Assembly: GCF_022921075.1 (NCBI RefSeq)
Contig: NZ_CP095050.1
Location: forward strand, 4,526,001 to 4,590,000
Direction: 5' to 3'
DNA: 64,000 nucleotides
From: Hymenobacter sp. 5317J-9
Lineage (GTDB): Bacteria > Bacteroidota > Bacteroidia > Cytophagales > Hymenobacteraceae
This document shows positions 7,939 to 10,191 of this stretch, one piece after another; within the stretch, counting starts at the first letter, position 1, and every line of letters begins with the position of its first letter. Below the pieces are notes generated by a model. That model made no database searches and was not told the DNA's origin. It saw only the letters and a list, made by a program, of their open reading frames with translations. A program made the translations under genes and the position numbers.

Positions 7939-10011
7939 TTAAAAGTCGGCTTCCAGGCCCAGACGTTGCTTGGCCTCGCGCAACGCCGGGAACCGCTCGG
8001 CCAGGTACTCAAACTTGTCCGAAGACGTGTAGAGCTTACGGGCCGTGGGCGCGGCCGTGCTCACCACGGGCTGCACGTTGAGGCGGGAGTTGCCGGTGCG
8101 GCGGCGCAGCTCGGCCAGAAACTCCACCCGCATTTCGTTGAACTGGTCAACCTGAATGGGGTTGTCGACGGCCAGCTCGATGGTGTGGTCGGCGTCGGCC
8201 ACCACGGGGCGGTTCAGCACCCAGAATTCGCTCATGCGGTCCTGGGCGCGGCGCTCTTCGGCCAGTTCCTTCCACACCCGCTCCAGCAGGGCGGGGTCGA
8301 CGGGCGCCACCGGGCCGCTGCTGGTCTGGGGCTCGGCCAGGGCGGCCGTGTTTGCAGCGGTGGCCGCGGCGCGACTGCTGAGGCTTTTGAGGCTGGGCAG
8401 CTTGCTGCCGGTCAGGCTGGGAATTTTGGCAAAGGCGGCCTGGGGCGTGGGGCGTGGGGCGGGCTCCACCCCCTCAAAGCTGGGCACGCCAATTTCGACG
8501 TGCGGCAGCGTGTCGCGCATCTGGTGGCGCTCGGTAACGGCCGCCGTGGGCTCGCTCTCGATGCTGGGCGTGTCGTGCAGCTCGTCTACGCCGTTTTCGA
8601 TGGGCAGCGGCTCGGGGCCATCGGCCGGGGCGGGGCCGGTGGCCACGGGCGCCCCGGCCGGCATGGGCAGCGGCGCCGGCGCAGCGCGAGGCGCCGATAC
8701 GTAAGGAGCGGCCGGCGACTCGGTGGCGTAGGCAGCGGGCGCTGCGTGCGAAGCTGTCGGCGTAGCTCCCGCGGCTATCGGGGCGGGTTGGGCGTGGCCG
8801 TTGCTGCCGTTGTTGGCGGGCGCCGGCGTGGCCGGCGCTTCGCTGTTACTTAAGCTGCTAGTTTTTTTTTTAGCCTCGCCGTTTCCGGCAGGGCTTAGCT
8901 CGCGAACGAACTGCACAGCGCCATTTAAGTAGGCCAGCTTCATCAGGGCCAACTCGACGTGCAGGCGCTGGTTTTTGGCTTGTTTGAACTCCCGGTCGCA
9001 CTGGCTGATGAGGTTGAGAGCCGAAAGCAGGAAGGCCAGCGGCGCGGCCTGAGCCTGTTGCACGTACTTCAGCCGGATGCCCTCGGACACTTCCAGCAGT
9101 TGCACGGTCACGGCGTCTTTGCACACCAGCAGGCCGCGCAGGTGCTCGGCGGTGCCCACCACGAAGTTGTGCAGGTCGAAGCCGTTCTGCATCACCTCAT
9201 CGAGCAGCAGCAGGGCGGCCGAGAGATTTTCGGTGAGCAGGCTGTCGACAAGGCGGAAGTAGTAGTCGTAATCGAGGATGTGCAGATTCTGCACCACCTC
9301 CTTGTAGGTAAGGTTGTTGCCGCCGAAGGTCACCATCTGGTCGAACATCGACAGAGCGTCGCGCAGGCCACCGTCGGCTTTTTGGGCCAGCAGGTGCAGG
9401 GCGTCGTCTTCGGCCGATACACCTTCCTGGGTGGCCACGTAGCGCAGGTGCCCGCGCATGTCCTCTACCTTGATGCGGCTGAAATCGAAAATCTGGCAGC
9501 GCGACAGGATGGTGGGAATAATCTTGTGGCGCTCGGTGGTGGCGAGGATGAAAATGGCGTAGCTCGGCGGTTCTTCCAGCGTCTTCAGAAACGCGTTGAA
9601 GGCCGCATTCGAGAGCATGTGCACCTCGTCAATAATGTAAATCTTGTACTTGCCGGCCTGCGGGGCGTAGCGCACCTGCTCCACCAGCGAGCGAATGTCC
9701 TCCACGGAGTTATTCGACGCCGCATCGAGCTCGTGTACGTTGAAGGAGGCGTTTTCTTGGAAGGCCACGCACGAGGCGCAGGTGCCACAGGCCTCGGTTT
9801 CGGCCGTGAGGTTGGTACAGTTTATCGTCTTGGCCAGGATGCGGGCGCAGGTGGTTTTGCCCACGCCCCGGGGGCCGCAAAACAGGAACGCCTGAGCCAG
9901 GTGCTGGCTCTGAATGGCGTTTTGCAGCGTGGTGGTGACGTGCTGCTGCCCCACCACGCTGCGAAACGTGGAAGGACGGTACTTGCGGGCCGAAACGACG
10001 AAATTATCCAT
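7939..10011 (-). CDS. dnaX: DNA polymerase III subunit gamma/tau
   Basis: This is the clamp-loader ATPase of the replisome; the full-length product (tau) has 690 residues. Visible motifs are the Walker A site GPRGVGKT (46-53), a zinc knuckle (C65, C75, C78, C81), the Walker B IIDEVHML and the SRC-type sensor in ILSRCQIFDF. After domain III (to about residue 375) comes a Pro/Ala-rich linker of roughly 180 residues and a C-terminal domain that should contact the polymerase. Codons 381-383 plus the next base form A10. One base gained or lost there leads at once to a stop, giving a 384- or 386-residue gamma-like product. A -7 box lies just upstream at 10024-10031. Confidence 0.96.
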   Translation of the reverse strand: MDNFVVSARKYRPSTFRSVVGQQHVTTTLQNAIQSQHLAQAFLFCGPRGVGKTTCARILAKTINCTNLTAETEACGTCASCVAFQENASFNVHELDAASNNSVEDIRSLVEQVRYAPQAGKYKIYIIDEVHMLSNAAFNAFLKTLEEPPSYAIFILATTERHKIIPTILSRCQIFDFSRIKVEDMRGHLRYVATQEGVSAEDDALHLLAQKADGGLRDALSMFDQMVTFGGNNLTYKEVVQNLHILDYDYYFRLVDSLLTENLSAALLLLDEVMQNGFDLHNFVVGTAEHLRGLLVCKDAVTVQLLEVSEGIRLKYVQQAQAAPLAFLLSALNLISQCDREFKQAKNQRLHVELALMKLAYLNGAVQFVRELSPAGNGEAKKKTSSLSNSEAPATPAPANNGSNGHAQPAPIAAGATPTASHAAPAAYATESPAAPYVSAPRAAPAPLPMPAGAPVATGPAPADGPEPLPIENGVDELHDTPSIESEPTAAVTERHQMRDTLPHVEIGVPSFEGVEPAPRPTPQAAFAKIPSLTGSKLPSLKSLSSRAAATAANTAALAEPQTSSGPVAPVDPALLERVWKELAEERRAQDRMSEFWVLNRPVVADADHTIELAVDNPIQVDQFNEMRVEFLAELRRRTGNSRLNVQPVVSTAAPTARKLYTSSDKFEYLAERFPALREAKQRLGLEADF
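8862..8871 (-). promoter_or_regulatory. A10 slippage site in dnaX (predicted gamma/tau switch)
   Basis: On the coding strand the sequence reads GCT AAA AAA AAA ACT AGC AGC TTA A. With 11 A residues the frame becomes AAA AAC TAG. With 9 it becomes AAA CTA GCA GCT TAA. Both out-of-frame readings therefore stop within four codons, exactly at the end of domain III. Slippage at an A-run in dnaX is established for Thermus thermophilus, and ribosomal frameshifting for E. coli. Its use here is inference. Confidence 0.7.
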
Positions 10012-10097: not shown

Positions 10098-10191
10098 GTC
10101 ATGCTGAGCGCAGTCGAAGCATCTCTACCGCGTAACTAATTCACTGCTTGCAACGAAGCGGTAGAGATGCTTCGACTGCGCTCAGCATGAC
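10098..10191. repeat. Dispersed palindromic element, copy B
   Basis: Perfect 34-base arms (10098-10131 and 10158-10191) flank a 26-base loop. It is the same family as 711-809, and the first 27 bases of the arms are identical to that copy. It lies upstream of tmRNA. Confidence 0.92.

Follow-up and report, generated by a model that had tools for sequence, protein, structure and literature searches.

A conserved A10 run in dnaX of Hymenobacter is a candidate slippage site for making both gamma and tau, with a predicted RNA hairpin at its 5' edge

Transcriptional slippage in dnaX is established for Thermus thermophilus (Larsen 2000, as described in PMC1088944 and PMC5009743), and these descriptions give a run of A9, stops in both other frames, tau encoded in the DNA frame and gamma made from slipped transcripts. 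The dnaX gene of Escherichia coli, as described in PMC3711429 and PMC5009743, instead carries the heptamer A_AAA_AAG, with an SD-like element on its 5' side and a stem-loop on its 3' side, and undergoes -1 ribosomal frameshifting. With GeneTack, Antonov 2013 (PMC3711429) predicts 17 dnaX genes divided into two ORFs; 12 contain poly-A, which is 10 As long in nine of the 12. Genes of this kind can make tau only through a shift, and polymerase slippage was proposed. A part for RNA structure is described in Roseiflexus IS630 (Penno 2015, via PMC5009743), in which a nascent-RNA hairpin directly 5' of a T5C5 motif in the transposase gene stimulates slippage, with one-base loss only and the hairpin as the enabling feature.

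The dnaX gene that we describe here lies in a 64,000-nucleotide stretch of DNA from Hymenobacter sp. 5317J-9, which we analysed as a whole and refer to as the window (Table 1); its best segment is 92-95% identical to other Hymenobacter loci (L001 and L069). A T10 run on the plus strand at 8862-8871 is A10 on the coding strand, beginning at cds base 1141 (codon 381, phase 0) and reading AAA AAA AAA ACT, and both the sequence and the cds position agree with a preliminary description of this DNA that placed the run at codons 381-383. The same description held that gain of one A gives AAC TAG, that loss of one gives CTA GCA GCT TAA, and that either ends the protein within four codons, at about 42 kDa against 75 kDa for the complete product. 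The computed translations bear this out: one added A yields a 384-aa product with the C-terminus KKKN (42.7 kDa), and one lost A yields a 386-aa product with the C-terminus KKKLAA (42.9 kDa), against 74.9 kDa for tau. Domain III (Pfam PF12169) covers residues 238-363 and A10 lies 3' of it, such that truncation would fall right after domain III, as had been claimed. The window gene is a single 690-aa ORF, so tau and gamma do not occupy different DNA frames here.

Table 1. Features of the dnaX locus, in window coordinates
Feature	Position	Strand	Basis
dnaX, DNA polymerase III gamma/tau, 690 aa (tau, 74.9 kDa)	7939..10011	-	TIGR02397 and PRK14971 matches; ORF 10011-7939
A10 run, candidate slippage site, codons 381-383 and base 1 of codon 384	8862..8871	-	
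Stretch common to gamma and tau, 5' of A10: ATPase domains and domain III	8872..10011	-	
Tau-only stretch (linker and C-terminal region), absent from gamma	7942..8861	-	
A-C-TAG; reads AAC TAG with one added A, giving a 384-aa gamma	8858..8862	-	
CTA GCA GCT TAA; stop reached with one A lost or two added, giving a 386- or 387-aa gamma	8850..8861	-	
Predicted hairpin AGCCCTGCCGGAAACGGCGAGGCT, flush with the 5' side of A10; candidate nascent-RNA stimulator of slippage	8872..8895	-	Fold, relatives, recoding controls, paired changes

The likeness to Thermus dnaX that the preliminary description drew, judged on published descriptions of Thermus, stands for the A run with stops in both frames, extends to tau in the DNA frame, and fails for run length, which is A9 in Thermus and not A10 (PMC1088944). 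The two also differ in tRNA-Lys, of which Thermus has two (PMC5009743) and the genome of the window one; in the window gene, a predicted hairpin ends at the run. A10 occurs once in the window, at least one A10 occurs in 9 of 100 dinucleotide shuffles, and the 5.4-Mb genome holds five A10/T10 runs, that of dnaX among them. The run is thus rare, as had been said; a chance origin is only moderately excluded by the window itself and is decisively excluded by conservation across relatives.

We consider it likely that the dnaX A10 is a programmed slippage site at which RNA polymerase slips, perhaps with the aid of the hairpin, such that one gene would yield gamma of 42.7 kDa and tau of 74.9 kDa; that some frameshift at A10 yields gamma is more likely still. 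On T10, the rA:dT hybrid inside RNA polymerase would span 9-10 bp and allow the transcript to shift by at least one base. A hairpin abutting the run would form in the transcript at the time when the hybrid is occupied by the run, and may favour that shift. Transcripts with 10 or 10+3n A would give tau and all other lengths gamma, because both other frames of the window gene stop within four codons. The polymerase is favoured by the run length, by the stops in both frames, by shifts that occur in both directions and, to a lesser degree, by the 5' hairpin; a single tRNA-Lys UUU, an excess of +1 cases and a strong downstream fold in the window argue against it. We infer from comparative sequence analysis that transcripts vary in length, that gamma exists and accumulates in cells, that the hairpin acts in slippage, and that slipping is mainly the work of the polymerase and not of the ribosome. 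The comparisons among relatives support the slippage reading of the preliminary description as a prediction, and they extend it by the 5' hairpin, by a phylum-wide reach, by relatives with gamma in the DNA frame and by a sister genus in which A7 is followed by a predicted hairpin.

Our genus set consists of the best 80 of 95 encoding stretches, 79 titled Hymenobacter and one Hymenobacteraceae; some strains are present twice, at least one locus (L064) belongs to genus g5 such that the sets overlap, and the genomes are related, so that counts are not independent trials. One of the six search peptides contains KKK, and because back-translation accepts AAG, A10 itself was not selected by the search. 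Across these loci (best 80 of 95) the run is A10 in 74 and A11 in six, KKK is kept, and synonymous breakage of the run, which the preliminary description had named as a check, is found in 0 of 80. The Thermus-type features are found throughout: at least nine As stand at the gamma/tau border in 80/80 loci, and both other frames stop within 10 codons in all 76 genes with tau in frame 0, compared to 7.7% of control positions (within five codons, 68/76 compared to 2.3%). The lysine codons at the site, counted in 79 genes, are 237 AAA and 2 AAG, both AAG from A11 genes, against 639 AAA and 1132 AAG (36% AAA) elsewhere in the same genes; L045, which lay outside the first site window and was recovered by a wider one, is absent from the 76, and its run was counted as elsewhere in the codon tally. 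The pattern GCN-A10-NTNR is present somewhere in 102 of 120 genus genomes, nearly always once, and the reversed pattern gave one match in the genus genomes.

Four of the 18 genomes without this pattern (G041, G065, G186, G190) have A9 or A11 genes; G186 failed the motif anchor and has A9 at the site as judged by eye, and G195 was without a match over the cut-off. The A9, A10 and A11 registers are therefore all present in Hymenobacter dnaX, and six Hymenobacter, one of the six judged by eye, have the two-ORF layout: A11 with a frame-0 stop in L069, L078, L079 and G190, and A9, again with a stop in frame 0, in G041 and, as judged by eye, G186. Single cases of this kind may be sequencing errors.

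Beyond the genus, we used the dnaX domain family to sample relatives in the family, the order, the class and the phylum, and retrieved their loci. The family loci taken are a partial set (2 from genus g2, 21 from g3, 5 from g4, 6 from g5 and 6 from g6). The order set holds 71 of 73 non-genus genomes (G241 and G264 without full match), the class set 78 of 85 (G281, G307 and G340 without full match; G285, G299, G341 and G342 left out) and the phylum set 49 of 61 (G364 and G389 without full match; eight left out; G353 and G418 failed the motif anchor). At the site that follows domain III, a run of at least nine As is found in 62/71 genes at the order level, 64/78 at the class level and 30/49 at the phylum level, and in 15/15 genes of the sister genera g4-g6 plus 2/2 further genes; it is found in 0/21 genes of g3 and 0/2 of g2. 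Runs of that length are present in the coding stretch 5' of the site in three order, one class and no phylum genes, and the whole read frame minus the site holds 11, 4 and 0 of them, respectively. The site is common and not universal, being absent from 19 of the 49 phylum-level genomes. Among 192 runs of at least A7 outside Hymenobacter, 141 are A10, with 19 A7, 2 A8, 21 A9 and 9 A11, and over order, class and phylum the run lies in phase 0 in 16 genes, phase 1 in 84 and phase 2 in 56. Because A10 dominates and sits in three codon phases, it is the nucleotide run, and not KKK, that is conserved. Stops in both other frames within 10 codons accompany it in 21/25 order, 37/41 class and 15/19 phylum genes (controls 25-30%).

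Outside Hymenobacter, 72 genes have a DNA frame that stops shortly past the site and encodes gamma only, with the tau tail placed in a different frame. A profile built from 148 tau tails that are in frame matches all 72 of these out-of-frame tails (E below 1e-5), and matches the third frame in 0/72. The shift that tau requires is one A more in 69 genes and one A less (or two more) in three; of the 72, three come from the family and have A6-A7. A homologous tau tail kept out of frame needs working slippage, and therefore the site should work in these relatives at least. The GTDB taxonomy places Chlorobi in Bacteroidota. The three species named in the text of PMC3711429 are Chlorobi, and, like the two-ORF dnaX genes described there, many relatives found here have tau out of frame; the window gene, unlike those genes, has tau in frame. 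Among the matches listed in the openly available full-text literature, there is nothing on slippage in Hymenobacter dnaX or on a dnaX 5' hairpin, and at the level of the phylum only PMC3711429 and a remark on Chlorobium in PMC5009743.

The RNA directly 5' of the window run is predicted to fold as AGCCCUGCCGGAAACGGCGAGGCU, which ends flush against A10; as a whole, the 60-nt stretch 5' of the run has no unusual stability (z -1.03; 28 of 200 shuffles match or exceed it). A predicted hairpin of -6 kcal/mol or better ending 0-2 bases from the run is present in 71 of the 80 Hymenobacter genes, with loop lengths that vary among relatives. This resembles Roseiflexus IS630 as described in PMC5009743, where the hairpin is likewise directly 5' of the tract; here, unlike there, the tract is A10 in a replication gene and the hairpin is a candidate stimulator only. 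The mean 5' hairpin energy is -11.2 kcal/mol in Hymenobacter against -4.5 kcal/mol elsewhere in the same genes, and -11.7 against -3.0 kcal/mol at other positions in the three sister genera g4-g6. Compared to synonymous recodings, the Hymenobacter hairpin has a small excess of stability (z -0.62; z -0.37 with the 5' arm alone recoded, and in 26/80 genes over half of the 5'-arm recodings are equally stable), and the excess is clearer in g4-g6 (z -1.43; 5' arm alone, -1.14). Swapping arms between genomes weakened the hairpin in g4-g6 (-11.7 to -9.4), barely did so within Hymenobacter (-11.22 to -10.87), and gave no weakening within g4 and g6 (-9.41 to -9.39).

Paired changes in the 5' stem were scored on 15 chosen rows, seven of them Hymenobacter rows selected because they share a register. 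In four of the nine pairs both partners have changed, and the covariation score of 0.483, against 0.299 in shuffles, is reached by 0/500 shuffles; few events stand behind this score, because most of the paired changes separate genera and the Hymenobacter rows were picked for register. One paired change falls inside a single genus (L130 compared to L114, both g6). Outside the family, a 5' hairpin of -6 kcal/mol or better is predicted at 14/62 order, 25/64 class and 10/30 phylum sites, and a general phylum-wide 5' hairpin, weak as it is outside the family, was dropped. The predicted 5' hairpin at the dnaX A10 of Hymenobacter and its sister genera is new here; selection for it, and a part for it in slippage, are only partly supported by the predicted folds. 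A clean hairpin story is weakened because the window and g4-g6 are predicted to fold downstream too, and because arm swaps within g4 and g6 change nothing.

That the ribosome slips, by -1 programmed frameshifting on A_AAA_AAA inside the run to make gamma in the style of E. coli dnaX, strikes us as rather unlikely, and a range of observations bears on it from both sides. The 43 tRNA matches in the genome include a single tRNA-Lys, with anticodon UUU, and because E. coli likewise has one tRNA-Lys (PMC5009743), a -1 slip of the ribosome on AAA AAA is plausible. Gain of one A has the same effect as a -1 shift, the stop of that frame is the nearer one, and 69 of the 72 two-ORF relatives need a shift in that direction. 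Yet A7 would suffice for a ribosome and A10 is kept, the stop in the other frame is conserved as well (76/76 within 10 codons) where a pure -1 shift needs one stop, and the opposite direction, or a shift of two bases, is required in three relatives and in those A11 genes of Hymenobacter that stop in frame 0. The same two products from the same gene are predicted here as in E. coli dnaX; unlike the E. coli site as described in PMC3711429 and PMC5009743, the window run is A10 followed by C, which contains A_AAA_AAA and lacks the heptamer A_AAA_AAG.

Downstream structure is equally two-sided. The 60 nt that follow the window run (8802-8861, minus strand) form a strong predicted fold (z -2.42, 3/200 shuffles as stable), a point for the ribosomal reading, with a core GC stem that starts ~23 nt after the run and weak outer pairs from 3 nt. 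The A10 sister genera g4-g6 likewise tend to have a hairpin downstream (z -1.15, a stability reached at 34% of control positions; z -1.41 in a separate test of downstream structure in sister genera with A10). Against this, 20 sampled Hymenobacter genes have no excess of hairpins at ribosomal spacing (z -0.19), and 50-nt windows downstream of the Hymenobacter run give z -0.52, with 22/79 genes in the top tenth. Downstream structure is on these values unconvincing as a stimulator in Hymenobacter, despite the strong fold in the window.

The sister genus g3 is arranged differently. Its run is A7 in 20 of 21 genes and A6 in one, upstream structure is weak (-2.05 against -5.66 for recodings in 12 tested genes, 2/12 at -6 kcal/mol or better), and a hairpin is predicted to start 3-9 nt after the run (12 genes; -9.9 kcal/mol, z -2.15, a stability reached at 3% of control positions), at 5-6 nt downstream of A7 in several genes, a point that favors the ribosomal reading. 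A downstream hairpin should be unavailable while the polymerase sits on the run, and we therefore read the predicted g3 arrangement of A7 and downstream hairpin as a ribosomal layout, which resembles that of E. coli as described in PMC3711429 and PMC5009743. As a proposal, the mechanism would have changed between sister genera, polymerase slippage acting at A10 and ribosomal frameshifting in g3. Three observations count against a clean contrast: the downstream lean of g4-g6, a g3 stem without covariation signal (189/500 shuffles reach its score), and stops in both frames that g3 keeps, as judged by eye. At the edge of these arrangements, L088 and L097 (g2) and L096 (g3) have A6G or A7G at the site; their DNA frame encodes gamma, tau lies a single base off, and the two g2 genes have stable structure downstream of the site (z -1.92).

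We tentatively entertain a broader reading, in which two-product dnaX would be an ancient, phylum-wide trait of Bacteroidota with A10 tuned to the polymerase hybrid, and the family of the window would have two versions that can replace each other: polymerase slippage at A10 preceded by a nascent-RNA hairpin and, in one sister genus, ribosomal frameshifting at A7 followed by a hairpin. The product encoded in the DNA frame would then drift freely, because slippage supplies the other. A FastTree tree of the sampled genes that have at least nine As, on which the Hymenobacter two-ORF genes were deliberately included, requires a minimum of 33 changes in the register of the run; 50 shuffles gave a mean of 60 changes and a lowest value of 54.

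These register changes, together with the occurrence of A9, A10 and A11 within Hymenobacter, are what phase variation would also predict, in which replication slippage varies the length of the DNA run between cells and each cell makes tau or gamma. We regard this as very improbable and reject it as the main cause: a variable tract would spread more than a run that is exactly A10 in 74/80 loci, and tau is presumably essential, so a cell locked into gamma should die without slippage in expression. That A10 is incidental to protein constraint on a Lys-rich linker, only tau being made, has the retention of KKK in the Hymenobacter loci in its favor and is least credible of all, ruled out by the three codon phases of the run across the phylum, the ratio of 237 AAA to 2 AAG at a site in genes with 36% AAA elsewhere, and the stops in both other frames beside it, with the out-of-frame tau tail past the site in 72 relatives likewise against it.

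If polymerase slippage at A10 is as we propose, production of gamma and tau together would be the rule in most of a phylum, and a single-frame gene finder would report gamma alone for many species and tau alone for others. Sister genera would seem to reach the same two proteins by polymerase slippage in some of them and ribosomal frameshifting in another. A cellular candidate would be added to hairpin-aided transcriptional slippage, and the result would bear on the purpose of gamma.

Several minor observations accompany these data. An insertion of ~34 residues follows KTINC (residue ~65) in the DnaX of 34/80 Hymenobacter (L038, L049 and L054, for example), beside conserved cysteines that we take to be a zinc module; the distance from P-loop to DEVH is 116-119 with the insertion and 82-83 without it, and the window protein is without it. 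Just upstream of dnaX, the window holds an inverted repeat whose perfect 34-nt arms are separated by 26 nt (10098-10131 and 10158-10191), which looks like an interspersed palindromic element. A low-scoring tRNA-Asp call (anticodon ATC, 41 bits) at G000:C1:3421690-3421765 (L403) is possibly a degenerate tRNA gene. A second A10, on contig 3 (G000:C3:16579-16588, L363), codes for SAKKKS in a long open frame (713 aa to the locus end) that is a possible second slippage gene.
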